Shown: piece after piece, positions 16,174-39,795 of the stretch
How the letters are laid out: each line of letters begins with the position of its first letter
Numbering within the stretch: the first letter of the stretch is position 1
NCBI RefSeq assembly: GCF_013414195.1
Contig: NZ_JAATTV010000001.1
Location: 62,001 to 126,000 of the forward strand
Source of the DNA: Psychrobacter sp. BI730
GTDB lineage: Bacteria > Pseudomonadota > Gammaproteobacteria > Pseudomonadales > Moraxellaceae
Direction: 5' to 3'
Length of the DNA stretch: 64,000 nt
The notes under the pieces: model-generated
The model's database searches: none
Seen by the model: only the letters and a program-made list of their open reading frames with translations
What the model was told of the DNA's origin: nothing
Translations under genes and position numbers: made by a program

Positions 16174-17874
16174 ATGACTGTAGATAAACCTTGGCTTGCT
16201 CAATATCCGGAAAACGTACCTAAGACGATTAATCCGGATCAGTATGAAAGCCTCATAGAGTTATATGAAGAGTGTTTTAACCGCTTTCGTATGCATCCGA
16301 TGACTATCTGTATGGGTGTTACGCATACTTATGGTGATGTTGATAACGCTTCACTGGCAGTCGCAGCATGGTTACAGGCTCAAGGTTTACCTAAAGGCAG
16401 CGTAGTAGCTCTTATGATGCCGAACGTTCCACAATACCTACCGACTATGATTGGTATTCTGCGTGCAGGTTACGTTTGTACACCTATCAATCCGCTATAT
16501 ACAGGCCGTGAGCTACGTCATCAATTGAACGACTCGGGCGCTCAGGTTATCTTTGTTGTTGACAACTTTGCCCAAGCGCTTGAGCAAGTTATTGAAGAGA
16601 CCAATATCAAACGTATCGTGCTATCGAAAATGGGCGATATGATGGGTCTGAAAGGTATTTTGGTCAATACGGTGATTCGTCAGGTTAAACGCTTGGTTCC
16701 AAAATACAACCTGAATGACCCTAAGTACAATGTCACTAAATTCCCTGAAGTATTAAAAAAGGGAAAAAACCTACCGATTCAAGCACCAAAAACCACCCTA
16801 CAACAAAAAGCGATTTTGCAATATACAGGTGGTACGACTGGGTTATCTAAAGGTGCTGTCCTAACACAACGTAATGTCGTTGCTGCTGCTATGCAATCAG
16901 AGGCATGGTATCGCCCTGTGACCTCAGGTATCAACGAAGTATACATCAATATGATTATGGCCTTACCGCTGTATCATATTTTTGCCTTTATGCTGAGTTT
17001 GCTAGGTATGCGTTCAGGTTATACCTTTATTCTAGTACCTAATCCGCGCGATATGCCAGGTTTTGTCAAAACCTTATCAAAACAACCGTTCCACATCTTC
17101 CCTGCTGTGAACACTCTATTTAAAGGTTTACTTGACCAGCCAAACTTTAAAGACTTGGACTTTAGCTCGTTACGTATCACTCAAGCTGGTGGTATGGCGG
17201 CAACTGAGCAAACCGCAGCACGTTGGTTAGAAGTGACTGGCTGCCCTATGGTTGAAGGTTGGGGTATGACTGAAGGCGTGGCTGGTGGTACTGCCAACGT
17301 TATCACTGACCGCAAGTTCAACGGTACTATTGGTATACCTGTACCGAGTGTCGATATTATCGTGGTTGACGAAAACGGTGAGCGTGTTGGCATGCATCAA
17401 GCAGGCGAGATGTGTATCAAAGGTCCAAACGTCATGTCAGGATACTTTAATAAAGACAATAGCAATGACTTTACTCGCGATGGCTACTTCCGCACTGGCG
17501 ATATCGTTAGCATGGATGAAAAAGGCTACTTTACTCTACTAGATCGCAAGAAAGACATGATCTTAGTTTCAGGCTTCAATGTATTTCCGAATGAGATCGA
17601 ATCTGTCATGCTTGATTGTGATGGTATTGTCGATTGTGCCGTAATTGGTATTCCTGATGAAAATCAAGGTGAAGCGGTTAAAATTTATATCGTACCTGCC
17701 GATAATAACGTCACTAAAGAAGTCATCAAAGAATTCGCACTTGAAAATTTGACTGGTTATAAATGTCCACGTCATATTGAGTTTGTCAGTGAACTACCAA
17801 AGAGTAATGTTGGTAAAGTACTACGTCAAAAGCTGCGTGAACAGCATATTTCAAATAATCCTCAAACGTTGTAA
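16174..17874 (+). CDS. fadD: long-chain fatty-acid--CoA ligase, copy 2
   Basis: A 566-residue acyl-CoA ligase that is collinear with copy 1 without gaps over almost all its length. The P-loop YTGGTTGLSKG is at residues 217-227. Differences concentrate in the first 20 residues, around the 200-210 linker, and in the C-terminal tail. AAGGA 8 bases before the ATG supports the start. It has its own upstream region and terminator, so the two copies can be regulated separately. Difference in chain-length preference is possible but cannot be read from the sequence. Confidence 0.93.
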   Translation: MTVDKPWLAQYPENVPKTINPDQYESLIELYEECFNRFRMHPMTICMGVTHTYGDVDNASLAVAAWLQAQGLPKGSVVALMMPNVPQYLPTMIGILRAGYVCTPINPLYTGRELRHQLNDSGAQVIFVVDNFAQALEQVIEETNIKRIVLSKMGDMMGLKGILVNTVIRQVKRLVPKYNLNDPKYNVTKFPEVLKKGKNLPIQAPKTTLQQKAILQYTGGTTGLSKGAVLTQRNVVAAAMQSEAWYRPVTSGINEVYINMIMALPLYHIFAFMLSLLGMRSGYTFILVPNPRDMPGFVKTLSKQPFHIFPAVNTLFKGLLDQPNFKDLDFSSLRITQAGGMAATEQTAARWLEVTGCPMVEGWGMTEGVAGGTANVITDRKFNGTIGIPVPSVDIIVVDENGERVGMHQAGEMCIKGPNVMSGYFNKDNSNDFTRDGYFRTGDIVSMDEKGYFTLLDRKKDMILVSGFNVFPNEIESVMLDCDGIVDCAVIGIPDENQGEAVKIYIVPADNNVTKEVIKEFALENLTGYKCPRHIEFVSELPKSNVGKVLRQKLREQHISNNPQTL

Positions 17875-24102: not shown

Positions 24103-25944
24103 ATGACGCAAAGCACTATGACGCATAGCGAATACCGAGACGAGTATTGCGGAGCCGTAACCGAGAGCTTGCTTGAGCAAACCATTAGTATCGTAGGCTG
24201 GGTACATCGTCGTCGCGATCACGGTGGCGTGATTTTCTTAGACATGCGTGACCGCGCTGGTATCTTACAGGTCGTGGTCGACCCTGATACCCCAGAAGCT
24301 TTTGCAGCAGCTGATGCTGTACGTCCTGAATACGTGCTAAAGATAACTGGCCGCGTACGTCGTCGTTATGAAGGTACTGAAAATAATAATATGACCAGTG
24401 GCCAGATTGAGCTATTGGGCAAAGAAATTGAAGTACTGGCTAAATCTGAAACGCCACCATTCCCATTGAATGACGAAAAAACGACTGTATCTGAAGACCT
24501 GCGTCTAAAGTATCGTTATCTTGATATGCGTCGTCCGCAAATGCAAGAGCGTATGGTATTCCGTGCCAAGGCAACGTCAGCGATTCGTCGTTATTTAGAC
24601 GATCATGGTTTCTTGGATGTTGAAACGCCTATCTTGACTCGTGCAACGCCTGAAGGTGCGCGTGATTATCTTGTACCATCACGTACCCGTCCAGGTAACT
24701 TCTTTGCCCTGCCGCAGTCACCACAGTTATTTAAGCAATTATTGATGGTGTCAGGTTTTGACCGTTATTATCAAATTGCTAAATGCTTCCGTGATGAAGA
24801 TTTACGTGCCGATCGTCAGCCTGAATTTACTCAGGTGGATATTGAGACTTCTTTCCTGAACGAAGAAGAAATCATGAACATCAACGAAGGTCTTATCAAG
24901 CATTTGTTTAAGACAATGATGGACGTTGAGTTCGAACAGTTCCCACGCATGACTTACGCTGAAGCAATGCGCGACTATGCATCAGACAAGCCTGACTTAC
25001 GTATTCCTCTAAAGTTGGTTGACGTTGCAGATTTGATGAAAGACGTTGACTTTAAGGTATTTGCCGGTCCTGCTAACGATCCTAAAGGTCGTGTGGCTGC
25101 CCTACGTATTCCTGGCGGCGCATCATTAAGCCGTAAGCAAATCGATGCTTATACCAAGTTTGTTGGTATTTATGGCGCACGCGGTTTGGCTTATATCAAG
25201 GTCAATGACGCTAGCAGTATCAACAATGGTGTGGATAAAGAGTCTGGCCTACAGTCTCCAATTATCAAAAACATGACTGATGACGTACTTGTGAGCTTGA
25301 TCGAGCGTACTGCTGCAGAAGATGGCGACATTATCTTCTTTGGTGCGGATAAAGCCAGTGTCGTGAATGATGCGATTGGTGCATTACGTCAAAAAATCGG
25401 TCTAGATCTTGAAATGACAACTTGTGAATGGGCCCCACTTTGGGTAACTGACTTCCCAATGTTTGAAGAGACTGACGATGGTCGCTGGACGTCGATGCAT
25501 CATCCGTTCACTAAGCCTAAAGGCTCAGTTGAAGAGTTGAAAAATAACCCAGAGTCTGCCCTTTCTATCGCTTATGACATGGTATTGAACGGTACTGAGA
25601 TTGGTGGTGGTAGCTTACGTATCAATACTTACGATATGCAGCAAGCTGTACTTGAAGCCTTGGGTATCGGTGAGCAAGAAGCTGAAGACAAATTTGGTTT
25701 CTTACTTGATGCCCTAAAATTCGGTGCACCACCGCATGGCGGCCTAGCATTTGGTTTGGATCGTTTGATTATGTTGATGGTAGGCGCAAGCTCTATCCGT
25801 GACGTTATCGCCTTCCCAAAAACCAAAACGGCTGATTGCCCACTGACCCAAGCACCTGCTGGCGTTGATAGCAAACAACTACGTGAGCTTGGTATCCGTG
25901 TGCGTGAAAAAGCACAGGCTGATACCAGCAAGCCTGCTGAATAA
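24103..25944 (+). CDS. aspS: aspartyl-tRNA synthetase, probably non-discriminating
   Basis: A 613-residue class II synthetase of bacterial type: anticodon-binding OB domain (residues 15-120), catalytic core with motif 2 ([17 protein letters not shown] near 227) and motif 3 ([13 protein letters not shown] near 546), and the GAD insert between them. The OB domain carries [11 protein letters not shown] with a histidine at the site that in Pseudomonas aeruginosa goes with charging both tRNA-Asp and tRNA-Asn; E. coli-type discriminating enzymes read GWVNRRRDLGS. It would then depend on GatCAB (inference). aspS forms the left border of the glycan locus. Confidence 0.96.
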
Positions 25945-26011
25945 ATCGTTTGATGATGCGCGGTTGCTGTCTACAGTGCTTGTTACGTGATTCATTACCA
26001 TGTGAGTGGTC

Positions 26012-27043
26012 ATGAATCCGTATCATATTTTCAAAGTCGTGCCATTGTCTGTACTGCAGATGCTGGCACGTTTTGCCGCTTGGGTTATCATTAAGATACC
26101 CAGTCTAAGTATCATGCGTACCATTCAGATCAATATGGCGCTGATTACTCATACACTGTCTGAGCAGCAAAAGCGTGCATTGACCAAAGACATTATTTAT
26201 CATCAATGTCTGACCAGTATTGAATCTATAAAAAGCTGGGCGATGCCACCTGAGTGGAGTATCGCTCAGATTCGTGATGTCCATAATAAAGACATTCTTT
26301 TAGAAGGTCTTGCCAATCCAAATGGCATGCTTGCTATCGTACCGCATCTCGGCACTTGGGAGATGATGAATGCTTGGCTCAACCAGTTTGGTGCGCCAAC
26401 TATTATGTATAAGCCAGTTGACGGCAAATTCGCTAATGAGTTTATCCTTCAAGGTCGAGCCCGACTCAACGCGACTTTAGTCCCTACTGATGGTAGCGGC
26501 GTCAAAGCCGTGTTTAAAACGCTCAAGCAAGGTGGTTTTAGTATTGTATTGCCCGACCACGTTCCAGAGCCATCAGGCGGTGTTGTTGTTCCGTTCTTTG
26601 GTATCAAAACATTGACCAGTACCCTTGCCTCAAAATTGGCGAGCAAGACCAAATGTGCGCTGGTTGGCTTATCTTGTATTCGCCGTACCGATGGACGCGG
26701 TTTTGATATTTACTGCTACAAACTCAACGATCCAGCCTTGTATGACCGTAATGCTGAAGTGGCAACTCATGCTCTCAATCAGGCCATGGAGCGTATGATT
26801 AAAGACAATTACAGTCATTATATGTGGGGCTATCGACGTTTTAAGCGTATACCAAACTTAGGCAACCCTTATAAAAAAGATAAAGAGACTTTAGCAGCCT
26901 TTATCCAATCTCACCATTCTAGCGTTTCTAGTCGTTCTGCTGGTGATATCAACGATAGCGTTCGAAATAACAACGTTAAAATCGACAATGTTAAAAACGA
27001 TAGTACTGTTAAAAGCTATAACACTAAGCTCGACAATCATTAG
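26012..27043 (+). CDS. LpxL/HtrB-type lysophospholipid/lipid A acyltransferase
   Basis: A 343-residue acyltransferase of the lipid A late-acyltransferase family. The catalytic H-x4-E is PHLGTWEMMN near residue 110; VLPDHVPEPSGGVVVPFFG and a YRRFKR segment near the end are also family features. It adds an acyl chain to lipid A or a lysophospholipid at the inner membrane. I start at the ATG at 26012 rather than the GTG at 26006. The last ~35 residues are a repetitive Asn/Lys/Asp/Val tail, unlike the family. It is the first gene of the aspS-ilvE glycan block, 67 bases after aspS. Confidence 0.88.
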   Translation: MNPYHIFKVVPLSVLQMLARFAAWVIIKIPSLSIMRTIQINMALITHTLSEQQKRALTKDIIYHQCLTSIESIKSWAMPPEWSIAQIRDVHNKDILLEGLANPNGMLAIVPHLGTWEMMNAWLNQFGAPTIMYKPVDGKFANEFILQGRARLNATLVPTDGSGVKAVFKTLKQGGFSIVLPDHVPEPSGGVVVPFFGIKTLTSTLASKLASKTKCALVGLSCIRRTDGRGFDIYCYKLNDPALYDRNAEVATHALNQAMERMIKDNYSHYMWGYRRFKRIPNLGNPYKKDKETLAAFIQSHHSSVSSRSAGDINDSVRNNNVKIDNVKNDSTVKSYNTKLDNH

Positions 27044-27192
27044 TCATCACCAACCTAGTGTTGCCTATTTATACATACCATCAGTTTAGACGTACCATCA
27101 GTCACAGCTATGCTAATATTGGCTGAACTCTATATTCTTTTACTTTTATTAGTCCTTCATTTATCTGACTATTATCTCAATACGAGTGCATT

Positions 27193-27993
27193 ATGACATC
27201 TGACGTAACTAAGACCTCATCTATAGACCCTCATCAAACCATCACAAATGCTGCTGAACAGCGTTATATCATCTGTATGAAATGGGGCGACAAATATGGT
27301 CCTGAATATGTCAATCGTCTCTACAACATGGTTAGTCGACATCTAACCTTGGATTTTAAAATGGTTTGCTTGACCGATGACAGCACAGGTATTGACCCTA
27401 CGATTGCCTGCTATCCGATACCTGACATGGATTTACCAGCAGGTCCTGAACGTGGTTGGAAAAAACTGACTACCTTTAAGCCTGAGCTGTATGATTTAAA
27501 AGGTGTGGCGCTATTTTTAGATATCGATATCGTCATTGTCGATAATATCGATGCGTTTTTCACTTACCAAGCAGAACATGAAGACAGCGTCGTCATCATT
27601 CGCGACTGGAAAAAACCTTGGCGCATGATTGGCAACAGCTCTGTCTATCGCTTTAATATTGGCATGAATACCTATCCTGATTTGCTGTCCAATTTTGAGC
27701 GAAACTTTGAAACCATTCGCACCCAAGTACGTCACGAGCAGGCCTATCTCTCTAACTATTTGCGTGAGCATCATCACCTAGAGTATTGGGATAAAACATG
27801 GTGTGTCAGCTTTAAGTATCAATGTATTGCGCCGATTCCTTTTAACTTTGTACGCACACCTACTCTGCCGGATGATGCAAAAATCGTTATCTTCCATGGT
27901 GAGATTAACCCGCCAGATGCAATTGCTGGCAGTGGCGGTAAATGGTATCGACATGTGAAGCCAAGCCCATGGTTAAAAGACCATTGGCAATAG
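27193..27993 (+). CDS. putative glycosyltransferase with DxD motif (left copy)
   Basis: A 266-residue soluble protein. It opens with YIICMKWGDKYGPEYVNRLYNMVSRH and continues with FKMVCLTDD, a layout typical of nucleotide-sugar transferases of the GT8-like or related GT-A fold; the metal-binding DxD is LDIDIVIVD near residue 116. A related protein with the same order of motifs (IICIKWGTKYGADYANKLYGMVSR; VDLDVIIVD) is encoded at 37923-38759 at the other end of the locus. GAG at 9 bases supports the ATG. Donor and acceptor are unknown; transfer to the LOS core is inferred from context. Confidence 0.75.
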   Translation: MTSDVTKTSSIDPHQTITNAAEQRYIICMKWGDKYGPEYVNRLYNMVSRHLTLDFKMVCLTDDSTGIDPTIACYPIPDMDLPAGPERGWKKLTTFKPELYDLKGVALFLDIDIVIVDNIDAFFTYQAEHEDSVVIIRDWKKPWRMIGNSSVYRFNIGMNTYPDLLSNFERNFETIRTQVRHEQAYLSNYLREHHHLEYWDKTWCVSFKYQCIAPIPFNFVRTPTLPDDAKIVIFHGEINPPDAIAGSGGKWYRHVKPSPWLKDHWQ

Positions 27994-28089
27994 ATGCTTA
28001 GCAATTAACCATATGTAGACAATTTATAATTAGCGTAAAGGCAGTGTATTAAGATATAAGATAGGTGAAATAAACGACTGGAAAATAGT

Positions 28090-28947
28090 ATGGCGCTATA
28101 TTTAAGATTACCTGCTACTGCTGGGTTCAACATTGATAATGAGCTCATCATTATCAATGCTTTTAATGCCAATGAACCTGAACAGAGCTTACATGGAAAA
28201 GACGTCAATATTATCGCCTCAGGGCCATCTATACAGCAGCTTCCGTTAGCAGAGCTACTAGATACGCCTACTATTTTTGTCAATGGCAGTATCAGCCTGA
28301 TTGGGCAGCATCAGTTTACCGATATTGCTGGTTACGTCATCAGTGATGCGCGCTTTATCAATCATCAGCCTGAGATTTTACAGCAGTACTATACGGGTCA
28401 ACCTCTATATGCAACATTAGCTGTCTTTGAAGCGATGGCCACCACGCACCCTGATATTATGCAAACGTACCATCGTGCCATGCGGGTGTTGTACCCAGTA
28501 GATAGGCCATGGGGAGTCAAGTCAAACAGGCTATCTTTTAATAAGCTTATCTTTAAGAAAAAATTACTCAATAAAAAAATACCCCTATCGTACTTTATCA
28601 ATAATCCAAACTTTATCATTGATAGCGATCATAAAGCGGCTGACATCGGTGTCTCTCTTAACATTACTCATGGATTTGTGGAAGCAGGCACCGTTGCTTA
28701 TGTCGCGGCGCAGTTGGCGTTTTCGCGTCAAGCAGCGAGTATTCATCTGTACGGTATTGATCTGCTTAACAGCAAGCAACCACGGTTTTATGAAAATAAA
28801 AATAATAGTGCGCCAAGTATGCTCAGCAAAGTCATGCACGAGCGCATTATCCCTTCGTTTAACTTACTCGGCAGAATCTATCAATCGCATGGTGTACCCG
28901 TCGTCAACCACTCTCCTATCTCTAAATCACTATTTGACACTTTCTAG
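28090..28947 (+). CDS. DUF115/MptE-like glycan-locus protein
   Basis: A 285-residue protein that I identify only loosely. An early IIASGPSIQQLP followed by PTIFVNGSI resembles the nucleotide-binding start of DUF115/Maf-type and sialyltransferase-like proteins. VISDARF, a middle basic stretch with KKKLLNKKIP, and HLYGIDLL near the end are further features. It has no signal peptide or membrane segment. It sits in the glycan locus, so a glycosyltransferase-like role in LOS or capsule assembly is plausible. Confidence in the family is low. Confidence 0.5.
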   Translation: MALYLRLPATAGFNIDNELIIINAFNANEPEQSLHGKDVNIIASGPSIQQLPLAELLDTPTIFVNGSISLIGQHQFTDIAGYVISDARFINHQPEILQQYYTGQPLYATLAVFEAMATTHPDIMQTYHRAMRVLYPVDRPWGVKSNRLSFNKLIFKKKLLNKKIPLSYFINNPNFIIDSDHKAADIGVSLNITHGFVEAGTVAYVAAQLAFSRQAASIHLYGIDLLNSKQPRFYENKNNSAPSMLSKVMHERIIPSFNLLGRIYQSHGVPVVNHSPISKSLFDTF

Positions 28948-29006
28948 TTGATGACTCGCAGTTAATAACCTCTACTTAATTGCGTTTAATTAAGAGCCAC
29001 TACAAG

Positions 29007-30173
29007 TTATAAACCCTCATTTTTCTCTGAATCTAAAACAGAACCAAACGCTAAGTACTGTCTTGCAATATGTTCAGGCAGTAACTGCTGGTTTAGCGGC
29101 ACGATATAATCTGTAAGGTTGTCTATGGCTTGATCGATGAGCATGGCCAAGCCATCAATATCACCTACCGCTATTAAGTTTTCTTTAGGTAATAGTTCTC
29201 TTGGACCAAAAGGACAATCCGTACTGATTACTGGTACGCCCAGTGCTTGCGCCTCTACGATGACATAGCCAAAGCCTTCAAACTTAGAGGTGAGTACCAT
29301 CAGTGCAGCTGATCTAATTAATGGATAAGGGTTGGTCTGGAAGCCTAAAAATTTAATACTATCGCTAATATTTAGTTGGACAGCCAACTGTTCAATCTCT
29401 GCTTCAAGCCTACCTTTACCTACTAGCACTAATGGCAGCTTTCGTTCTGTTTTAGCATACGCCTGTAGCAAGTCTCGATGACCTTTCATGTCATCAAATG
29501 AGGCGACATGTATAATGTACTCTTTATCTACTAATCCGAAATGTTCAAGATGGCTAGATGCTGCTGCTTTGGTCTTTATAGCAATAGCATCACAAGGATT
29601 GTAGATTGTTGTGGTTTTGGTAATATTTCCTATAATATCAATCAAATCTTGACGTGCACCTTTACTCACACAGCTACAAGGATGAGCGCCATAGACCATT
29701 TTCAAATGATTTATAGTCTGTACTGGCGACTCTAATAATTGGTTTTGGAACTGCTTAGATAGCGCCGTATGCAGTACATTTACGATGTTTGGCAACTGGC
29801 TATATGCCATAATCCAGTTTATTTTATAGATATTAGCCAGTATCAAATCTGGCTTCCCTATTTGGCTAAGCACGTAAGTGTCAATACGCTTAGCGACTGA
29901 TTCGTAGGCTTGTGCTTGCGTAGATTCTGGGTCGAGATTCTGCTCAGAAAACACCTCATCATATGGCACGATGTGATATTGCACACGAGCGTCTAGTAGC
30001 ATATCTTGCGTCGCTTCCAAACATAGAATATGAGTACGATAGCCCATATCTGCATAAGTGCTTGCCAACGTCGCAACCATACGCTCAGCACCGCGACCTT
30101 CAAGCGCTTTTAAAATAAATAGAATAATAGGTGGCATTGGTGTCTCAGCTTGGTTTTTTAACGGTATAGGCAT
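29007..30173 (-). CDS. GT4 glycosyltransferase
   Basis: A GT-B-fold retaining glycosyltransferase, 388 residues. LEGRGAERMVATLA is the N-terminal acceptor-side glycine loop; the C-terminal half has IIHVASFDDMKGH and LVGKGRLEAEIEQLA, then FEGFGYVIVEAQALGVPVISTDC with the two donor-binding glutamates (EGFGYVIVE). It is related to the two GT4 proteins at 34627-36887. The ATG at 30137, just before PPIILFILK, is an alternative start with a better-placed GAG; 30173 has none. It is encoded against its neighbours. It probably adds a sugar to the LOS core; the specificity is unknown. Confidence 0.85.
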   Translation of the reverse strand: MPIPLKNQAETPMPPIILFILKALEGRGAERMVATLASTYADMGYRTHILCLEATQDMLLDARVQYHIVPYDEVFSEQNLDPESTQAQAYESVAKRIDTYVLSQIGKPDLILANIYKINWIMAYSQLPNIVNVLHTALSKQFQNQLLESPVQTINHLKMVYGAHPCSCVSKGARQDLIDIIGNITKTTTIYNPCDAIAIKTKAAASSHLEHFGLVDKEYIIHVASFDDMKGHRDLLQAYAKTERKLPLVLVGKGRLEAEIEQLAVQLNISDSIKFLGFQTNPYPLIRSAALMVLTSKFEGFGYVIVEAQALGVPVISTDCPFGPRELLPKENLIAVGDIDGLAMLIDQAIDNLTDYIVPLNQQLLPEHIARQYLAFGSVLDSEKNEGL

Positions 30174-30432
30174 GATAGGTTAGCCAAATGAATGCAACTA
30201 TGGTCATAATTATTGCAGCGTTCTGACTTTATATGCTAGTCTCACCTACCGCTGGTACTCGGCATCTACTCAGTAAAGTACGAGCAGGATTTAACGGTAT
30301 CTCTATAAAAATTATAATGAGTCTAACTATCTAAATCGATTAAACCTTGTTAATAATCGCATCAGCAAATATCATAGCTGGTCTAATATAGCTACTAAAA
30401 TAGATGCATATCCGAAGAGAGCAGGATCAGTT

Positions 30433-31434
30433 ATGAAGCAGCCTAATGAAAACACATTAGACATCGTCATTGCTTGGGTAGATGGCGCAGACCCTATACT
30501 CAAACACAAGCGAGAACAGTATAAGCCAACTAAAGAAGTGGCATCTGACGCAATAACTGACACGCGTTTCGCTAGCGACGATGAGATATATTATAATATT
30601 GCTTCTATCATCAAATATGTGCCTTTTTGTCGTCATATATATGTCGTCACAGATCAACAAAAGCCAGCGTTCATCGATGAGTTTGCCAAGCAAGGTATTT
30701 GCTCAGCAGATAAAATACGCATTGTTGATCATAAGGACATATTTTTAGGTTATGAAGAATTTTTACCGACCTTCAACACTCGATCAATTGAGACGATGAT
30801 TTGGAATATCCAAGGATTGTCTGACTATTTTATCTATATGAACGATGATTTCTTTTTTAATCAACCAGTGACGATAGATGACTTTTTAGACAGTGAGAAG
30901 CTAATCATTCATGGTGAGTGGCGTAAAAGTGCTGCTTTGAATGCCAAGCTTAATTTTCGAAAATCACGCTTTAAATTGTTTGGCACATCGATACAGCCAA
31001 GGCATACTATCGCGCAAATGTTAAGTGCTAAAATACTGGGCATGAATCAGTTTTTTGAAATTCATCATTACCCTCATATTGTCGATAAAAACATCTTAAA
31101 GTCCCATTTGTTGAATCATCCGCAATTATTGACCGAGCAGATAAAATACAAATTCAGAGATGTCGCCCAAGTTAACCCTATAACACTGATGAATCATCTG
31201 AAAATTCAAAAAAGCGAAGCACACTTAAAGCCTAATACCTCTATCAACTATCTAAAAAATGAGAATAGCGTAGAGGACTTTATCATTGCTTTAGAAGATA
31301 AATCTATCAAGTACGGTTGTATCCAAAGCCTAGATCTTCTGGAACCAGATTTACACAACAAAATCAGCCAAGCTATGAAGCATAAATTTTTAGCGTATCT
31401 TCCCACTTCTGTGACGGGAACGTCAGTTAGCTGA
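30433..31434 (+). CDS. Stealth-family sugar-phosphate transferase
   Basis: A 333-residue Stealth protein. Conserved region 1 is DIVIAWVDGADP near residue 10; region 2 includes DDEIYYNIASIIKYVPFCRHIYVVTD, LPTFNTRSIE and YFIYMNDDFFF near residue 138; a later HYPHIVDKN matches region 3. Family members transfer hexose- or HexNAc-1-phosphate to glycans, as in capsule synthesis and in eukaryotic GlcNAc-phosphotransferase. So this enzyme may add a phosphodiester-linked sugar. AGGATCAGTTATG gives a good ribosome-binding site. It is followed 90 bases later by ugd on the same strand. Confidence 0.88.
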   Translation: MKQPNENTLDIVIAWVDGADPILKHKREQYKPTKEVASDAITDTRFASDDEIYYNIASIIKYVPFCRHIYVVTDQQKPAFIDEFAKQGICSADKIRIVDHKDIFLGYEEFLPTFNTRSIETMIWNIQGLSDYFIYMNDDFFFNQPVTIDDFLDSEKLIIHGEWRKSAALNAKLNFRKSRFKLFGTSIQPRHTIAQMLSAKILGMNQFFEIHHYPHIVDKNILKSHLLNHPQLLTEQIKYKFRDVAQVNPITLMNHLKIQKSEAHLKPNTSINYLKNENSVEDFIIALEDKSIKYGCIQSLDLLEPDLHNKISQAMKHKFLAYLPTSVTGTSVS

Positions 31435-31524
31435 GCTGACACGGTATCGTGATTTTTAGTCATATTTAGCATAAACCAATTTCGGATCAGATCCATCAAA
31501 GCATGAACATTAATTGGATATATT

Positions 31525-32691
31525 ATGAAAATAGCAGTAGTAGGTACAGGCTACGTAGGCCTATCAAATGCAATGCTATTGGCACAGCACAACGAAGTCG
31601 TCGCTGTCGACATTGTTCCTGAAAAAATCGACTTATTGAATACTCAGCAGTCCCCTATTGAAGATGAAGATATTGAGGATTTTTTATCAAATAAAAATCT
31701 CAACTTTTCTGCGACACTTGATGCGTCGGCAGCCTATAAAGGCGCTGATTTTATTATTGTGGCGACACCAACTGATTATGACGCCAAGACCAATTACTTC
31801 AATACATCAACGGTAGAAGCAGTGATTGAGCAAGTACTTTTGGTCAATCAACAAGCGACTATTATTATAAAGTCTACCGTACCAGTGGGATATACGGCGA
31901 GTATTAGAGAGCGTTATGCAACTGACCGTATTATCTTTTCACCCGAATTTCTGCGAGAAGGTAAAGCGCTGCATGACAACCTTTACCCTTCTCGAATCAT
32001 TGTAGGTGAACAGTCAGAACGGGCTCAATTATTCGCTAACTTACTCCTTGAAGGCGCGATCAAGAAGGACGTGCCGCTACTATTTGTAAAGCCCACTGAA
32101 GCTGAGGCAATTAAGCTATTTTCTAATACTTATTTAGCAATGCGCGTGGCCTATTTTAATGAGCTTGATACTTACGCTCAAACCTTTGGACTTGAAACCA
32201 AACAAATCATAGAGGGTATTGGCTTAGACCCTCGTATTGGCAATCATTATAATAACCCTTCATTTGGCTATGGCGGCTACTGTCTGCCCAAAGATACTAA
32301 GCAGTTATTAGCAAATTACGATGAAGTGCCAAGCAACCTGATAAAAGCCATTGTCGATTCTAATAGAACCCGCAAAGACTTTATTGCCGATAAAATCATC
32401 GAAAGACAGCCAAAAATCGTGGGAATACATCGCCTAGTAATGAAAAGTGGGTCAGATAACTTTAGAGCATCTGCCATACAAGGCATCATGAAACGTATCA
32501 AGGCAAAAGGTATCGAGGTTGTTGTCTACGAACCTGTGCTAAAAGAAGACAATTTCTTTAATTCGCGTGTGATTCAAGATTTAGAAACCTTTAAATCAGT
32601 GAGTGATGTCATTGTCGCAAACCGCCTATCTGACGATATAAAAGATGTCGCAGACAAAGTATTCACTCGCGATCTGTTTGGGAGCGACTAA
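31525..32691 (+). CDS. ugd: UDP-glucose 6-dehydrogenase
   Basis: Oxidises UDP-glucose to UDP-glucuronate with two NAD+. It is 388 residues, like the short E. coli Ugd. [12 protein letters not shown] at residues 5-16 is the Rossmann loop; the catalytic cysteine is Cys253 in [14 protein letters not shown]. The stop codon overlaps the ATG of the epimerase gene by one base (TAATG), so the two are translationally coupled and make UDP-glucuronate and then its epimer. GGA at 6 bases supports the start. Confidence 0.96.
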
Positions 32692-33704
32692 TGAAAATAC
32701 TGGTCACTGGTGCGGCAGGTTTTATTGGTTTTCATTTAATCAAGGCGATACTAGAAACAGATCTATCTGCTAGGGATTACTGTATCGTTGGTATCGACAA
32801 TATCAACGACTATTATGATACAGATCTAAAAGAAGCGCGTTTGAGAATATTAGGTGAGATATCAGATCCAGAAATTTTTACATTTATTAAGTTAGATCTG
32901 GCTGATCGTGAAGCCATATCTGAGCTTTTTGCAACCTATCAATTTGATACAGTTGTTAATTTAGGTGCCCAAGCAGGTGTGCGCTATTCTATCGAAAACC
33001 CTAACGCGTATATCGACTCAAATGTGGTTGGCTTTGTTAATATTCTAGAAGGCTGTCGTCACCACGATATTAAGCACTTAATCTACGCAAGCTCTAGCTC
33101 TGTTTATGGTATGAATATAAAGCAGCCATTTACCACTGCTGATTGTGTTGATTTTCCTATCAGCCTATATGCCGCTACCAAAAAATCCAACGAGCTTATG
33201 GCACATAGCTATAGTCATTTATATAATATACCTACGACAGGATTAAGGTTTTTCACCGTTTACGGTCCTTATGGTCGACCTGATATGGCGTACTTTTCTT
33301 TTACTAAGAAAATTCTGGCTGGCGAGCCAATTAATGTATTCAATAATGGTGTTATGCAGCGTGACTTTACGTATATTGATGATATCGTCAACGGCATTAT
33401 TCGTATAATTAATAAGGCCCCTTCGCCCCAGCATTCTACTATTACGACTGCAGCTGCCCCCTATAAGATTTACAACATTGGTAATAATCAGCCAGTCACT
33501 TTGCGCCGTTTTATTACTGCTATTGAAAACGCTTGTGGTAAAAAAGCGCAAGAAAACTTATTGCCTATGCAAGCAGGCGACGTACCGATTACTTACGCCG
33601 ATATAGATGAGTTGGTAGAGGACATTGGCTTTAAGCCTGAAACCAGTATCGAAGAAGGTATCAAACAATTTGTTGACTGGTATAAACAGTATTATTCAGT
33701 CTAA
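32691..33704 (+). CDS. NAD-dependent sugar epimerase, probably UDP-glucuronate 4-epimerase
   Basis: A 337-residue extended-SDR epimerase. TGAAGFIGFHL at residues 6-16 binds NAD; the catalytic triad is in SSSSVYG and YAATKKSNE (Tyr-x3-Lys), and FFTVYGPYGRPDMA is typical of UDP-glucuronate 4-epimerases. Directly coupled to ugd, it most likely makes UDP-galacturonate for the surface glycan. Substrate assignment is by family pattern and operon, not proven; UDP-GlcNAc/GalNAc epimerases are related but less likely here. Confidence 0.88.
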   Translation: MKILVTGAAGFIGFHLIKAILETDLSARDYCIVGIDNINDYYDTDLKEARLRILGEISDPEIFTFIKLDLADREAISELFATYQFDTVVNLGAQAGVRYSIENPNAYIDSNVVGFVNILEGCRHHDIKHLIYASSSSVYGMNIKQPFTTADCVDFPISLYAATKKSNELMAHSYSHLYNIPTTGLRFFTVYGPYGRPDMAYFSFTKKILAGEPINVFNNGVMQRDFTYIDDIVNGIIRIINKAPSPQHSTITTAAAPYKIYNIGNNQPVTLRRFITAIENACGKKAQENLLPMQAGDVPITYADIDELVEDIGFKPETSIEEGIKQFVDWYKQYYSV

Positions 33705-33787
33705 ACAAACAACAATGATCTCTAAGACTTATATTATAGAGATTACGGCGCTAATATCTTTATATATTTTTAGAGGATTTTGATAAT

Positions 33788-34555
33788 ATGGCTACACCTT
33801 CAAGTTGGCAGAGAAAATTGCTATTGATCTTTCGAAGCGAAAAAAGATTGAATGCAGGTAAGATTATCAAAACCTATGATGATAGAAGCTTTGATGAGAT
33901 GAAAGCAACAACCATTACTGAATCAATGTGTGATATTGAAGCGTTAACTGATGAGCGTAAAAGCACAGATTTAGAAAACCATTTGAATAACTTGAAATAC
34001 AAATCACTTGGTGAGTCTGAGCTCTGCTTTTATCACAACACGCTTATTATACTAATGCGCCGTAAGTACAAAATAGATAAAACATTCGCTGAATTTGAAA
34101 AGTTATGGGAGGCAGAGAGCGACTATTTATTGACACATCTGTCGTTGCGCTGGATTGTCTCTGCTTGCGATACGTTTATTGATCATTCAGACAATACTCA
34201 TAGAGCAGCTATCTTGATGAATGTGGTCACTTTAATGAATACTTTACGTACTTATGAGACCAAAAACTTTCTGCAGTTATCCACTAATGCTGAACCTATG
34301 CCGTTATTAGACGAAAAAACCGACATACTTTATGCCGGCGATTTGCCTCTATACGATGGACTTACTTATTTCCGTATTGGTACCGATGATAGCTTAAGAA
34401 ATATGCGTAAACGCTATAATAAATTTCAGAAAGTCGATAAATTGGCTACGACTATACTACTCGCTGTATTCGAAAAACTACAGAACAACCAAAGTGCTTT
34501 CGCTACTCTACGGCAATTGCATAGAGATGATTGGTCCAAATGGTGGTTAGATTAG
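33788..34555 (+). CDS. unrecognised protein of the glycan locus
   Basis: A 255-residue soluble, mainly helical protein that I do not recognise. It has no signal peptide or membrane segment. The N-terminal 50 residues are basic and then acidic (DDRSFDEMKA...), the middle is rich in Leu and aromatics (ESELCFYHNTLIILMRRKYK), and it ends DDWSKWWLD. GAGGA 8 bases before the ATG supports the start. It is 83 bases after the epimerase gene on the same strand, and a weak 7-bp hairpin without T-run lies between. It may be a partner of one of the transferases; there is no direct evidence. Confidence 0.65.
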   Translation: MATPSSWQRKLLLIFRSEKRLNAGKIIKTYDDRSFDEMKATTITESMCDIEALTDERKSTDLENHLNNLKYKSLGESELCFYHNTLIILMRRKYKIDKTFAEFEKLWEAESDYLLTHLSLRWIVSACDTFIDHSDNTHRAAILMNVVTLMNTLRTYETKNFLQLSTNAEPMPLLDEKTDILYAGDLPLYDGLTYFRIGTDDSLRNMRKRYNKFQKVDKLATTILLAVFEKLQNNQSAFATLRQLHRDDWSKWWLD

Positions 34556-34626
34556 GGCTATCTTTCTCATATTTTGACTCAAAACTACTGCTTTCGTTTT
34601 TTATCAATGCTGAGACTAAGAAACGC

Positions 34627-35745
34627 CTAATTATTGGTTGCCATAAACTCTATATATTGTTGAGCAATATTCGTTGGTAGCAGCTCATTATCGAATGCGG
34701 ACTCATACATACTAGCATCCACCATTGCTTCATCCATTTTTTCTGCTAAAGCGTCAACATCTCCTACAGGGACGAGGTTGTACGATGGTAGTAACTCACT
34801 TGGACCTGATGGGCAGTCTGTACTGATAACAGGGGTTTCTAATACAAGAGCTTCGGCAATCACTAAGGCAAAACCTTCCCAATCAGAGGTTAGCACTTTA
34901 AATTTAGCATGCTTTATATAAGGAAAAGGGTTCTCCTGAAAACCTAAAAATACTACTTTTTCTTCTAAGTTGAGTTCTACTACCAATTGCTCTATTTCGT
35001 CTTTCAGCTTTCCTTTACCTAGCAGTAATAGTGGCATAGACTGATCTGTTCGAGCATATGCTTTTAGCAGCACATCGTGACGTTTCGCTTCTTTAAAACT
35101 CCCCACATGAACAATATAATCTTGGTACTCAGGAGTAAATGCGTCACCTAGCTTTTGAATGTAATCTCTATCGACTGGATTGTGAATGGCAATCGTTGGC
35201 GTAATATTACCAAAGCTTTCAACAAAATCTTTTTCAGCGCCTTTACTGACACATATACAAGGATGCTTGGAGTAGATGTTAATCATCTTTGACTTTAGTG
35301 TGTCAGCAGCATTCGTATTATCGAATTTATATAACAAAGACACTGTGTTATGAATCACATAAAATATATTAGGTAGTTTGCTATTGCTTAAAATACTATC
35401 TGCACGATCTAGATTAGACAGTATCATATCAGGCTGACCAATGTTTTTTGAAATGTAACGATCGACTACGAACGCAAAAACTTTGTCACGACGTTCTAAT
35501 TTTGGTATCAGTTTATAACGCTTAAAATCAATAAAGTGGTAGTTTAGTTTTGGATTAAGCTCGTAATCTACACGGGGCTTAAACCGTAAAATATGTACTT
35601 CATAACCCAAATCATAGAATCCCTGTCCTAAAGTCAGAACAACACGTTCAGCGCCGCCACCTTGTAGACAGTTAATGACTAAGAGTACTTTATTTTTATT
35701 ATTTTTAACTTCTTTTTTTCTTGTTCTAATAACACTATTAATCAT
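34627..35745 (-). CDS. GT4 glycosyltransferase, tandem copy A
   Basis: A 372-residue GT-B glycosyltransferase. LQGGGAERVVLTLGQGFYDLGYEV is the start; the donor site is VHVGSFKEAKRHDV, LLLGKGKLKDEIEQL and DWEGFALVIAEALVLETPVISTDC. It is closely similar along its whole length to the next gene (35793-36887), so the two are a tandem duplication; it carries a more basic N-terminal extension (RTRKKEVKNNKNK). The ribosome-binding site is weak. Specificity is unknown. It is the last gene of the minus-strand half of the locus, convergent with the unrecognised gene. Confidence 0.87.
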   Translation of the reverse strand: MINSVIRTRKKEVKNNKNKVLLVINCLQGGGAERVVLTLGQGFYDLGYEVHILRFKPRVDYELNPKLNYHFIDFKRYKLIPKLERRDKVFAFVVDRYISKNIGQPDMILSNLDRADSILSNSKLPNIFYVIHNTVSLLYKFDNTNAADTLKSKMINIYSKHPCICVSKGAEKDFVESFGNITPTIAIHNPVDRDYIQKLGDAFTPEYQDYIVHVGSFKEAKRHDVLLKAYARTDQSMPLLLLGKGKLKDEIEQLVVELNLEEKVVFLGFQENPFPYIKHAKFKVLTSDWEGFALVIAEALVLETPVISTDCPSGPSELLPSYNLVPVGDVDALAEKMDEAMVDASMYESAFDNELLPTNIAQQYIEFMATNN

Positions 35746-35792
35746 TTTAAATTTTCTTAGAAATAGACATTGTGAGTATAAAATATTTGGAA

Positions 35793-36887
35793 CTATTTAT
35801 TCATAATATGGACTTGTTCAGCAAACTCTACGTATTTTTCTGCTATTTTGACTGGTAGCAGCGCTTCATCGAACGGCGCATGAAACGCTTGCGGGTTATT
35901 CATAGCTTGCTGCATTTTTTTGGCAATGGCATCAATATCGCCCATTGGCATCAAGTTACTTTCAGGCAGTAACTCACTTGGGCCTGACGGACAGTTGGTA
36001 CTGATAACGGGAGTACCTAGCACGAGAGCTTCGGCAATGACCAGAGCAAACCCTTCCCAGTCAGACGTCAATATCTTAAACTGCGCATTTTTGATGTAAG
36101 GAAAGGGATTATCACAAAATCCTAAAAATATTACTTTGTCTTCTAGGCTTAACTCTGTTACAAGTCGCTCTGTTTCACTTTTATGCTTCCCTTGACCTAA
36201 AAGTAGTAAAGGCATAGATTGATCTGTTTTTGCATAAGCATTTACCAATACATCATGACGCTTGGCATCTTTGAAACTACCGACATGGATAATATAGTTT
36301 TGGTAGTCAGGGACAAAAGCATCGGCTTGTTGTTGAATACTGTTTTTATCTATTGGATTATGAATGGCGGTGGTTGGCGTAATATGACCAAAGCTCTTAA
36401 TAAAATCTTTTTGAGCGCCTTCACTGACGCACACACAAGGATGCTTGGTATATATATCTATCATTCTTTGCTTTAACTGCTCAGCGTCGTGATTTTTATT
36501 AAACTTATAGAGTAGTGATACTGTGTTATGAATAATATAAGTGATATTAGGCAGTTTACTATTACTTAGAATACTATCGGCACGATCTAGATTAGATAAT
36601 ATGATGTCAGGCTGACCGATATGTTGTAAAACGTATTTATCAACAGCGCGCGCAAAAACTCTATCGCGTCTTTGTGCCCCTGGTATTAATTTGTAGGGCT
36701 TAAATTTTAAGACATGATAATTGAGATTTTGGCTTAAATCGTACTGTACCAGTGGCTTGAATCTTAGAATATGTACTTCATACCCTAATTCATAGAATCC
36801 TTGCCCCAATGTCAATACAACACGTTCCGCACCGCCGCCTTGTAAACAATTAATAACGAGTAACGCTATTTTTTTGTGCTGCTTCAT
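35793..36887 (-). CDS. GT4 glycosyltransferase, tandem copy B
   Basis: A 364-residue paralogue of copy A with the same motifs (LQGGGAERVVLTLG; VHVGSFKDAKRH; DWEGFALVIAEALVLGTPVIST). I start at the ATG at 36887, with AGG 9 bases upstream; the longer frame uses TTG at 36896 with no ribosome-binding site. Copies A and B lie 47 bases apart and could add two sugars in the same linkage, or have diverged in donor; both are guesses. Confidence 0.88.
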   Translation of the reverse strand: MKQHKKIALLVINCLQGGGAERVVLTLGQGFYELGYEVHILRFKPLVQYDLSQNLNYHVLKFKPYKLIPGAQRRDRVFARAVDKYVLQHIGQPDIILSNLDRADSILSNSKLPNITYIIHNTVSLLYKFNKNHDAEQLKQRMIDIYTKHPCVCVSEGAQKDFIKSFGHITPTTAIHNPIDKNSIQQQADAFVPDYQNYIIHVGSFKDAKRHDVLVNAYAKTDQSMPLLLLGQGKHKSETERLVTELSLEDKVIFLGFCDNPFPYIKNAQFKILTSDWEGFALVIAEALVLGTPVISTNCPSGPSELLPESNLMPMGDIDAIAKKMQQAMNNPQAFHAPFDEALLPVKIAEKYVEFAEQVHIMNK

Positions 36888-36951
36888 AAACGACAACCTA
36901 TGGAATAAATCTTTAGCTTTTTAAAAAGGCTTATCACTGCTTCATTAAAAA

Positions 36952-37818
36952 CTAGCGTTTAAATAGCTTTGAAAAAAATGACTTAGAAGCATGTGGACGA
37001 GTCACCTTATTACCTATATATCCTTGTTGTGATTTTTTTGGAAAACTACCAAATGGCTCAATTCGATAACTTTCTAAATCATATCCAGCAGTAAGCGCTT
37101 CATTATAGTAGGTATCGAAAAGATCGACCAAATCCTGTCTTGGATGTGGCAATACTTCACCGTCAAACCAATGCTCAATCCCTTCCTCATTCACTCTAGG
37201 TAAGGAGTACTTATGACTGAATTGCGTTCCCATATCGGAATAATGCAAAATTTTGATTTCTTCTATTGCTAAGTCTTCACCATCGATACAGTTATAGCTA
37301 TCTTGATAAGGCTCAATCAGTTGCGTATTTTTCTTAAACAAAGCCATCATCTCTTTGTGACTTTTGGGATCTTTTTTAAGTTTCTCGATAGGCAAAACCA
37401 CATTTTTTGCAGCATCACAATCCCACACACAGGTGCATAGACGAGTCATATCAGCATTTGCTTTAGCGGCTACTATAGACTGCCCTTGGATAGGATGCTG
37501 CCATAGCTTTGCTAGATCGTCTAAAATAACAACATCAGCGTCCATATAGATTGCACGTCCAGAATAATTGCAATACTCAGGAATCGCCCATCTAAAACCA
37601 GAAAAAGGCGTTGACCACTTAGTAGTATCCCAACCCTTACCAGTCTCAGGATTTGAATACCAGTAGCTATCCGGATCGCGCGATAACTGCATCCATACTA
37701 TTTCCACTGGCATACTAGTATGTTTATGAATACTATAATCTAGAACCATCATCTGCTCTAAATCACAGTTATTTGGGTCACAGCCAACAAAGACTCTGAT
37801 GGTATCATTTGTTTTCAT
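36952..37818 (-). CDS. GT8-like glycosyltransferase
   Basis: About 288 residues of a GT-A-type transferase. It has an early VFVGCDPNN, a mid-section with YSGRAIYMDADVVILDDL (metal-binding DxD in MDADV near 95) and a late LPHPRQDLVD. This order resembles bacterial GT8/LPS galactosyl- and glucosyltransferases. I prefer the ATG at 37818 (GGA 7 bases upstream) over 37830. It ends with a basic tail (HASKSFFSKLFKR) that could bind the membrane face. It is part of a minus-strand run of four transferase genes. Confidence 0.8.
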   Translation of the reverse strand: MKTNDTIRVFVGCDPNNCDLEQMMVLDYSIHKHTSMPVEIVWMQLSRDPDSYWYSNPETGKGWDTTKWSTPFSGFRWAIPEYCNYSGRAIYMDADVVILDDLAKLWQHPIQGQSIVAAKANADMTRLCTCVWDCDAAKNVVLPIEKLKKDPKSHKEMMALFKKNTQLIEPYQDSYNCIDGEDLAIEEIKILHYSDMGTQFSHKYSLPRVNEEGIEHWFDGEVLPHPRQDLVDLFDTYYNEALTAGYDLESYRIEPFGSFPKKSQQGYIGNKVTRPHASKSFFSKLFKR

Positions 37819-37922
37819 AATTCTATCCATTCACTGGGTCATGCTTTCTATCTTCACGAATATAAAGATAGAAAGCATCAATACTAACGTTTGCTAATAT
37901 GGTAATAACTATAAAGTTAAAT

Positions 37923-38759
37923 CTATTCTCTCCAATATTTCTCAACCCATCCTACTGGCAAGATAAAGTGACGCAAATGACGTAGCGGTCTTTTCAAATT
38001 TTTAGGCTCAGTCAATCTTTTTAGATGGTCTTTAGCATTATTGGCGGCGTTTTTATTGTATCTGCCTTCAATAGCGTGCGTAGGATACAAATCACCTGGG
38101 AAGATAACAATACGAGCGCCTTTAGGAATCTTCGGTTCTTTGATGTAGTTAAGCGGGAATGGTTGGCGACATTTACGTCTAAAGTGTGCGACCCAAGCTT
38201 TTGGAAACAGTTTTACACCACCTGGTGCATTACGGGTGACAAAACGCTGCTCAAAACGATATTCATCAGCGATACCTTGCGGGTCAGCTTTGAACTTCTC
38301 TTGGAGTGAAATAAGTGACCCTATCTGAAACCTAAAGCAAGACGTTTGCCCTAGGCGCTCTAATGGGTTACTCGGGTTATAAGATAAAATAACATCGTCT
38401 GGCTCGCCGTATTCAAAGAAAGGATCGAGGCTATCTACTATAATCACATCCAAATCTACAAATAATACTGTCCCTGTCAAATCACCTAACTTCTCACCCC
38501 ACAAACGAGACTTTGGCCACTTGCCAAGTGTGTTGGTTGGCATGGTGACATCTAATGGTGGCAATGCTTGACATTCGATTTCTGGACGTACATCGGTGGT
38601 ATCATCGGTAAAACAGACGAAGCGAAACGGTGGCGTGATATTGCGAGATACCATGCCATACAGTTTATTGGCGTAATCAGCCCCGTACTTTGTACCCCAT
38701 TTAATACAAATAATTTGTTTGATATTGTTATTATCTGCTGTACTAGAATCTATTGGCAT
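37923..38759 (-). CDS. putative glycosyltransferase with DxD motif (right copy)
   Basis: A 278-residue relative of the protein at 27193-27993. Shared motifs in the same order are IICIKWGTKYG, FRFVCFTDDT, the DxD block VDLDVIIVD, a central LGQTSCFRFQIG, and a late IVIFPGDLYPTHAI. It lacks a signal peptide; GAG 8 bases before the ATG supports the start. It is the outermost gene of the glycan block next to ilvE. Substrate is unknown. Confidence 0.75.
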   Translation of the reverse strand: MPIDSSTADNNNIKQIICIKWGTKYGADYANKLYGMVSRNITPPFRFVCFTDDTTDVRPEIECQALPPLDVTMPTNTLGKWPKSRLWGEKLGDLTGTVLFVDLDVIIVDSLDPFFEYGEPDDVILSYNPSNPLERLGQTSCFRFQIGSLISLQEKFKADPQGIADEYRFEQRFVTRNAPGGVKLFPKAWVAHFRRKCRQPFPLNYIKEPKIPKGARIVIFPGDLYPTHAIEGRYNKNAANNAKDHLKRLTEPKNLKRPLRHLRHFILPVGWVEKYWRE

Positions 38760-38808
38760 GGACTGCTCACTTTAATCTTAAGAATAAATATGATGGCTAT
38801 ATTAGCAT

Positions 38809-38843
38809 AAAAAAAAGACTGAACAATTATGTTCAGCCTTTTT
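38809..38843 (-). terminator. ilvE terminator
   Basis: On the minus strand a stem GGCTGAAC / GTTCAGTC (one G-U pair) with a six-base loop is followed by eight T, just after the ilvE stop codon. It isolates ilvE from the glycan genes downstream. Confidence 0.85.
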
Positions 38844-38865
38844 GGTCTTTAAACTAACGACTTTA

Positions 38866-39795
38866 TTAGTCAATAAAGCTTAACCAGTCCATATATTTCT
38901 CATTACGACCATGAACCACATCAAAGTATAGGGTCTGTAGTTTTTCAGTCAATGGTCCGCGACCACCATTACCGATGATGCGATCGTCATATTCACGAAT
39001 AGGCGTCACTTCAGCAGCAGTACCTGTCATAAAGATTTCGTCTGCTAAGTAGAACTCATCACGAGTGATACGGCGTTCAACGACTTTGATGTCTAGATCA
39101 GCCGCGAACTGAAGGATAGTACGACGAGTAATACCATCAAGTGCCCCACCCGCTAAATCTGGCGTATGTAGCACGCCATCCTTTACCAAGAATAAGTTTT
39201 CACCAGCGCCTTGACAAACATACCCTTGCGGATCCATCAAAATAGCTTCGTCATAGCCATTACGCGTCACTTCTTGGTTCGCCATGATAGACACAGGATA
39301 GTTACTGGAGGCTTTTGCCTTACACATAGTGACGTTTGGCATATGATGCGTAAATGAAGAGGTTTTTACACGGATACCATTTTTAATGCCTTCCTCACCA
39401 AGATAAGCACCCCAATGCCAAGCAGCAACCATTGCATTGATGCTGTTATCACGTGAAGACAGGCCAAGTTTTTCTGCACCTACCCAGATGAGCGGACGAA
39501 TATAAGCTTCTGCCAAGTTGTTCTGTTTAACCACATCTTTATGCGCTTGCTCTAGAGTCGCTGCATCGAACGGTACGTCCATTTGAAAGATTTTTGCAGA
39601 GCCTAACAAACGCTCGGTATGCTCTTTTAGACGAAAAATAGCCGTACGATTATCAGCAGTTTGATAAGCGCGCACGCCTTCAAACACAGCCATGCCATAA
39701 TGCAAGCTATGGGTAAGCACATGAACTTTAGCATCTGGCTGTTCGATCATTGTGCCATTCATCCAAAGCTTACCATCTTGTGTTGCCATATTCAT
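38866..39795 (-). CDS. ilvE: branched-chain amino-acid aminotransferase
   Basis: A PLP enzyme that makes Leu, Ile and Val from their 2-oxo acids, 309 residues (E. coli 309). The PLP lysine is Lys161 in CKAKASSNYP; LHYGMAVFEGVR at residues 31-42 and GAGENLF near 206 are conserved. AAGGA 7 bases before the ATG supports the start. In Acinetobacter this gene borders the outer-core locus, with glnE beyond it, exactly as seen here. Confidence 0.96.
   Translation of the reverse strand: MNMATQDGKLWMNGTMIEQPDAKVHVLTHSLHYGMAVFEGVRAYQTADNRTAIFRLKEHTERLLGSAKIFQMDVPFDAATLEQAHKDVVKQNNLAEAYIRPLIWVGAEKLGLSSRDNSINAMVAAWHWGAYLGEEGIKNGIRVKTSSFTHHMPNVTMCKAKASSNYPVSIMANQEVTRNGYDEAILMDPQGYVCQGAGENLFLVKDGVLHTPDLAGGALDGITRRTILQFAADLDIKVVERRITRDEFYLADEIFMTGTAAEVTPIREYDDRIIGNGGRGPLTEKLQTLYFDVVHGRNEKYMDWLSFID

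Follow-up and report, generated by a model that had tools for sequence, protein, structure and literature searches.

The stretch of Psychrobacter sp. BI730 DNA examined here raises the question of what is made by the 12 genes, carried on mixed strands, that lie between aspS and ilvE. The stretch, the whole of which we call the window, comprises 64,000 nucleotides of a 3.26-Mb genome (contig NZ_JAATTV010000001.1, positions 62,001 to 126,000; G000:C11:62001-126000 in our genome set). An earlier sequence-only reading had described aspS, 12 genes on mixed strands, and then ilvE and glnE, and the open reading frame (ORF) coordinates bear this out: aspS, encoding aspartyl-tRNA synthetase, lies at 24103..25944 on the plus strand, and ilvE (38866..39795) and, past it, glnE (40172-43036) lie on the minus strand. 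From aspS to ilvE, the genes are ACY, gtA1, a WaaZ-like gene, GT4a, STE, ugd, uge, W8, GT4b, GT4c, GT8 and gtA2 (ACY, STE, gtA, W8 and the like are names coined in this analysis), in strand blocks of three plus, one minus, four plus and four minus. We conclude that the aspS-ilvE interval is very probably the variable locus from which Psychrobacter makes its lipooligosaccharide (LOS) core, equivalent in position to the outer-core (OC) locus of Acinetobacter. The argument draws on position, variability, conserved edges, exchange in blocks, gene families and the match between the locus and the LOS of P. arcticus.

Loci of this kind are already known from A. baumannii, as passages of PMC3628348, PMC4172580 and PMC10936431 describe. 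The A. baumannii OC locus has the same two borders as the window, in the same facing orientation, and the size of 8.8-9.4 kb given in the passages of PMC3628348 is similar to the Psychrobacter median of 11.5 kb. Like the interval studied here, it consists mostly of glycosyltransferase and nucleotide-sugar genes without repeat-unit processing genes, and is replaced in blocks between strains, according to parts of PMC3628348 and PMC4172580. The constant part adjoins ilvE in A. baumannii, whereas in Psychrobacter it adjoins aspS and consists of ACY and gtA1. When set against descriptions of the A. baumannii loci, as opposed to their reference sequences, the window differs in having Stealth, ugd, uge, WaaZ-like and W8 genes and no polysaccharide deacetylase.

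The borders hold throughout the genus. We searched 105 Psychrobacter genomes for aspS and ilvE and found both in all of them (the window's proteins match PF00152 at E=3e-125 and TIGR01122 at E=7e-123, respectively). They lie on one contig in 86 genomes, facing each other in 85, and on separate contigs in the other 19. In the one genome where they share a contig without facing each other across an interval (G001), they are 2.25 Mb apart, and gtA1 has remained near aspS. This facing arrangement, like the GC difference described below, goes beyond chance. The facing intervals span 4.9-17.8 kb in 84 cases and 32.7 kb in the last (G056). The counts that follow refer to these 84 intervals, window included, a set that omits the 19 split-contig genomes, G001 and G056; three of its members (L074, L083 and L101) were trimmed by fewer than 600 bases, within the border genes. 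Genes were called as the longest ORFs of at least 90 amino acids, which misses small or broken genes, and were grouped into single-linkage clusters at 35% identity, which merges paralogues (gtA1 with gtA2, and the three GT4 genes with one another).

Between these conserved borders, the content varies widely. The intervals hold 5-19 genes in 61 different orders and 55 gene-content sets, and the window's own order is found in nine of the 84, window included; a locus fixed throughout the genus is therefore rejected. The ACY and gtA clusters are near-constant, each in 83 intervals, and the others come and go: WaaZ-like in 49, STE in 43, ugd in 42, W8 in 41, GT8 in 37 and uge in 35. Close relatives differ too. 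Among 162 genome pairs with aspS at least 98% and ilvE at least 97% identical, 36 have identical cluster content and 89 share less than half of it (kinship is ignored in these pair counts, as in the Fisher tests below). The interval is thus not identical among relatives, and the proposal of the sequence-only reading that this is the equivalent variable locus of a Psychrobacter-like strain is supported; the facing ilvE and aspS borders that mark Acinetobacter-type core loci are present as well. In the 32.7-kb interval of G056 (L140/L141, G056:C1:29316-64726), a pair of ORFs akin to the transposase-like ORFs of a different interval, together with a long run of unassigned ORFs, including ones of 1225 and 2221 amino acids, that by eye (with no family search) resembles a phage tail module, sit among rml, YrbL, GT25, STE and gtA genes.

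Alignment of DNA from four relatives with the window indicates that genes are exchanged in blocks, the junctions falling close to the ends of genes, at about 31328, 33695, 37924 and 38864. Two relatives align up to 31328 and resume at 38864, the third aligns up to 33695 and resumes at 38864, and the fourth aligns up to 33695 and from 37924, with just two short 69% matches in between. In P. nivimaris LAMA 639 (L002), the proteins of the same locus are 86-100% identical to the window's, gene by gene. The GC content of the interval is below that of its own aspS and ilvE in all 84 cases; in the window, it is 39.3% across the 12 genes versus 42.8% outside the aspS-ilvE stretch. High turnover and low GC would also suit a neutral accumulation site, a hot spot for unrelated glycosyltransferase genes that share no common product, and STE and W8 indeed show no association (p=0.2). 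Other genes do not assort at random, however: uge is accompanied by STE in all 35 intervals that contain it (Fisher p=3e-16), W8 is accompanied by GT8 in 34 of 41, and STE, ugd and uge occur together in 12 of 12 Acinetobacter loci, which were fetched through STE. Because ugd and uge are placed differently relative to STE in Acinetobacter and in Psychrobacter, this co-occurrence is not merely that of a shared operon. We therefore consider a neutral site to be exceedingly improbable.

The best link between the interval and LOS comes from P. arcticus 273-4 (G005), for which an LOS structure is published. Its interval contains ACY, gtA1, an Lgt3-like two-domain GT2 gene, a GT25 gene, genes for an unassigned protein and a weakly GT4-like protein, and rmlB, rmlD, rmlA and rmlC (the rml genes being named from the Pfam matches of cluster representatives), without WaaZ-like, STE, ugd or uge genes. 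As presented in passages of PMC4515632, the core is alpha-MurNAc-(1-3)-alpha-L-Rha-(1-3)-beta-Gal-(1-4)-beta-Glc-(1-4) attached to an alpha-Glc with additional beta-Glc at O-3 and O-6, itself joined to O-5 of 3-deoxy-D-manno-oct-2-ulosonic acid (Kdo); there are two Kdo and no hexuronic acid in those data, the only uronic-type item being the lactyl group of muramic acid. The sole RmlC found in the P. arcticus genome lies inside the interval. Aligned over 531 columns, the Lgt3-like protein shares 65% identity with a Moraxella macacae protein named Lgt3, an enzyme described in part of PMC12373483 as adding beta1-3, beta1-4 and beta1-6 Glc. The branched glucose unit of P. arcticus recurs in the M. 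catarrhalis core (passages of PMC6332130), and the LOS of both organisms is heptose-free with a tri-glucosyl unit (parts of PMC4515632 and PMC6332130). Full-length Lgt3-like genes occur in four of the 105 genomes, in all four of them inside the aspS-ilvE interval; a partial match (43%, 254 residues) lies on another contig in G079. The connection to LOS, which was first drawn by analogy with Acinetobacter, thereby gains independent support.

P. arcticus also bears on whether the locus might be mixed, with only the aspS-proximal genes serving LOS and the swapped middle decorating a different acceptor, for instance lipid-linked sugars or proteins. An alternative module on the ilvE side, PMT_2 with a GtrB-like GT2, a GtrA-like protein and YdjC, would act on the periplasmic side; it is found in 15 of 84 intervals (e.g., L110, L068 and L111), complete in most of them, and W8 lacks any glycosyltransferase match, both of which speak for such a division. 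The middle genes of P. arcticus (Lgt3-like, GT25 and rml) nevertheless match residues of its LOS, and every deletion in the equivalently placed locus of A. baumannii ATCC 17978 altered the LOS band pattern, as stated in passages of PMC10936431. A mixed locus is very unlikely in our judgment, and the PMT_2 module suggests a periplasmic core modification in some Psychrobacter strains.

A different possibility is that the product of the interval is a repeat unit of capsule, O-antigen or exopolysaccharide, with the export genes elsewhere. Genes such as ugd, uge and rml are common in capsule loci, and initiating-transferase domains (PF02397, on C33 and C37) and a Wzy_C protein (PF04932, on C33) are encoded on other contigs of the window's genome. 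Wzx, Wzy and initiating transferases, which together define a capsule or O-antigen cluster, are all missing from the window's interval by family search, on which ground a capsule locus is rejected there and the same observation in the sequence-only reading stands. Outside the window, the family search covered 25 proteins (20 representatives of the larger clusters, four genes of L060 and one of L083), and so a minority of the 62 single-member clusters. A screen of the 84 intervals for clusters with at least four predicted membrane segments, which is blind to initiating transferases with few spans, found only PMT_2, the GtrA-like proteins and one Acyl_transf_3/AlgX-like protein. Glycosyltransferase and sugar-synthesis genes without repeat-unit processing, as in Acinetobacter core loci, were thus found in the window by family search, and in the other intervals by the membrane screen and these 25 proteins. 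Moreover, the LOS core of P. arcticus contains rhamnose and the only RmlC found in that strain is encoded in the interval, and the constant edge gene encodes an acyltransferase of the lipid A type. Together, these results make a repeat-unit locus unlikely.

Several observations nonetheless weigh against an LOS core locus. Allotting three linkages to Lgt3 and one each to gtA1, GT25 and the two remaining proteins of P. arcticus, five enzymes in all, gives seven non-Kdo residues, but this count is not proof because one of the genes is without a family and another has only a sub-cutoff GT4 match. No Lgt3-like gene is found in the window's genome at E<=1e-10, nor any match in 100 of the 105 genus genomes at E<=1e-40, and so the window's inner core must be unlike the P. 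arcticus one or depend on other enzymes for its assembly. For the strain from which the window comes, we found neither an LOS structure nor a mutant. Besides the domains on C33 and C37, the window's genome has a second ugd and an RmlC on C14; other polysaccharides are therefore probably made, and could share some genes of the locus. Finally, gtA1 relatives (E<=1e-20) were found in 89 of the 149 family genomes searched, in 6 of 16 genera, and the constant edge is accordingly not family-wide. On balance, we continue to favor an LOS core locus, and infer that the window's strain makes its LOS from it.

How far does this arrangement extend beyond Psychrobacter? We fetched loci from 20 of the 48 genomes of other genera with a gtA1 match: 12 of 21 in g10, six of six in g7, one of one in g16, one of 19 in g15 and none of one in g13, where g10 and g7 are presumed to be Moraxella-type and g15 Acinetobacter-type groups. 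The order aspS-ACY-gtA1 was found in 17 of the 20, comprising all 12 g10 loci and five of six g7 loci; the sixth g7 locus is rearranged, and the g16 and g15 loci show no aspS within the fetched stretch. On the far side, ilvE is seen in three of the g7 loci with aspS-ACY-gtA1 and is outside the fetched stretch in the g10 loci; unlike in the window, it is not seen in the stretch in 14 of the 18 Moraxella-type loci. An Lgt3-like gene is in view in seven of the 20 loci (L163 among them), directly after gtA1 in four g10 loci. The two-domain GT2 Lgt3 that marks the Moraxella core type is present in P. arcticus, in contrast to the window's genome. Moraxella-type genera keep aspS-ACY-gtA1 in 17 of the 18 loci fetched, which suggests that ACY and gtA1, on the aspS side, are older than the genus, even if gtA1 relatives were found in just six of the family's 16 genera.

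Relatives of STE (E<=1e-40) are present in 43 of the 119 genomes of the presumed Acinetobacter group. All 12 Acinetobacter loci fetched, which were chosen through the presence of STE, have STE (58-63% identity), ugd, uge, gtA1 and ACY grouped next to ilvE. The far side is closed by aspS in eight of them; of the remaining four, two stretches end just past ACY, and L034 and L037 show no aspS in the next 4-5 kb. To the sequence-only reading, the gene set had seemed different from the Acinetobacter types. That fits the A. baumannii types of PMC4172580, the main text of which contains neither "stealth" nor "ugd", but it does not extend to Acinetobacter at large, as ACY, gtA1, STE, ugd and uge are present in both the window and these 12 loci. 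One record, L039 (NZ_JADVOP010000011.1), titled Acinetobacter baumannii ACIN00150, has the Stealth/ugd/uge genes between ilvE and aspS; since each species is represented by a single genome in the collection, the species name on this record may merit a second look.

Turning to the individual genes, the window's proteins were assigned to Pfam and NCBIfam families at E<=0.001, which gave Lip_A_acyltrans, three GT4, Stealth CR2 with a weak CR1, UDP-glucose dehydrogenase, NAD-dependent epimerase and GT8, and no family for the proteins at 27193, 33788 and 37923. The sequence-only reading had placed the ORFs correctly; its gene list leaves ugd and the epimerase unnamed. ACY (26006..27043, plus strand; PF03279, E=1e-34), at the aspS-side edge, encodes an LpxL-type late acyltransferase, one of two Lip_A_acyltrans genes detected in the window's genome, and its predicted acylation fits lipid A completion. 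The other edge gene, gtA1 (27193..27993, plus), has a DxD motif and a GT8-like predicted fold that resembles glycogenin and LgtC (best E=4e-9, template modelling score about 0.55). As the near-constant transferase of the locus, it is the best candidate for adding the first sugar, a hexose, to Kdo. Its paralogue gtA2 (37923..38759, minus) is 36% identical to it by alignment and adjoins ilvE.

The protein encoded at 28090..28947 (plus) has no Pfam family and a sub-cutoff NCBIfam match to the KdoIII transferase WaaZ, homologous over residues 37-261 (TIGR04437, E=5e-20). A score of 72 bits is far below the equivalog cut-off of 200, so the same reaction as WaaZ cannot be assumed and the name WaaZ was rejected; a sequence search of the PDB led nowhere. 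We regard it as a candidate for the addition of a branch sugar, e.g., a third Kdo. Chain extension is the predicted role of three GT4 glycosyltransferases, all on the minus strand, GT4a (29007..30173; PF00534, E=3e-28), GT4b (34627..35745; E=9e-27) and GT4c (35793..36896; E=3e-26), and of the GT8-family enzyme (36952..37830, minus; PF01501, E=5e-7).

STE (30433..31434, plus) encodes a relative of the Stealth-type sugar-1-phosphate transferases. The full Stealth family has four conserved regions. STE matches CR2 (PF11380, E=1.6e-29, 102.7 bits against a cut-off of 39.4) and, weakly, CR1 (PF17101, E=1.6e-5, 24.9 bits, under the cut-off of 27.2), whereas CR3 and CR4 are unmatched at E<=0.001; we therefore class it by homology as a Stealth-CR2 relative, short of established four-region membership. 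Its relatives in the PDB are the GlcNAc-1-phosphotransferase GNPT alpha and CpsY. Next to it, ugd (31525..32691, plus) encodes a putative UDP-glucose 6-dehydrogenase (NF011631, E=9e-203, with 673.5 bits where the cut-off is 757; the TIGR03026 match passes its own cut-off). With a second ugd-domain copy over the cut-off on C14, the idea that this is the genome's dedicated LOS gene was rejected. The product of uge (32691..33704, plus; PF01370, E=1e-54) has 5u4q as its best solved relative, matched over its full length (E=2.8e-134), and is predicted to epimerize UDP-glucuronic acid (UDP-GlcA) to UDP-galacturonic acid (UDP-GalA), the assignment of UDP-GlcA being likewise a prediction. Because uge matches 5u4q in full and occurs only with STE, UDP-GalA is pointed to as a substrate of the window's core type.

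W8 (33788..34555, plus) is, as far as homology goes, an orphan family. Its predicted structure is all-helical (mean predicted local distance difference test score 78), with no profile match in the PDB at E<=1 and no fold match at E<=0.001 (best E=1.1). It has 161 relatives at E<=0.001, and the named ones among the 120 matches listed are Psychrobacter. Relatives with 44-51% identity lie near gtA1 in three g7 genomes (L158, L160 and L162). Elsewhere in the window, at 13755-15533 and 16174-17874, a tandem pair of long and very similar ORFs looks by eye, from the translations, like acyl-CoA synthetase genes.

From these assignments, we propose how the core could be built. ACY would complete lipid A, with gtA1 initiating core synthesis on Kdo. 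In the window's type, UDP-GlcA and UDP-GalA would come from ugd and uge, a branch from the WaaZ-like protein and a sugar-1-phosphate from STE, and chain lengthening would fall to the GT4, GT8 and gtA2 enzymes. The finished LOS would then exit by the general lipopolysaccharide export route, as there is no Wzx, Wzy or initiating transferase at the locus. The exact reaction given to each gene in this scheme is a prediction. We suggest further, as a tentative and rather doubtful proposal, that the Stealth protein, fed by ugd and uge, decorates the LOS core of Psychrobacter and many Acinetobacter species with galacturonic acid-1-phosphate or a similar sugar-1-phosphate. Stealth would then act in stepwise core assembly and not in capsule polymerization, and the aspS-side start of the locus would be common to Psychrobacter and Moraxella-type genera.

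Among the titles and abstract openings listed from the open-licence literature, we found no description of a Psychrobacter core locus, of its link to the P. arcticus LOS or of a Stealth-ugd-uge core type. These results provide the whole genus with a candidate locus for its LOS core. They also yield a concrete gene-to-structure map of the LOS published for P. arcticus 273-4, for which the passages and listings consulted gave no earlier gene assignment. It also becomes directly testable whether gtA1 starts a heptose-free core, whether Stealth proteins act as core modifiers and whether W8 is a new LOS protein.

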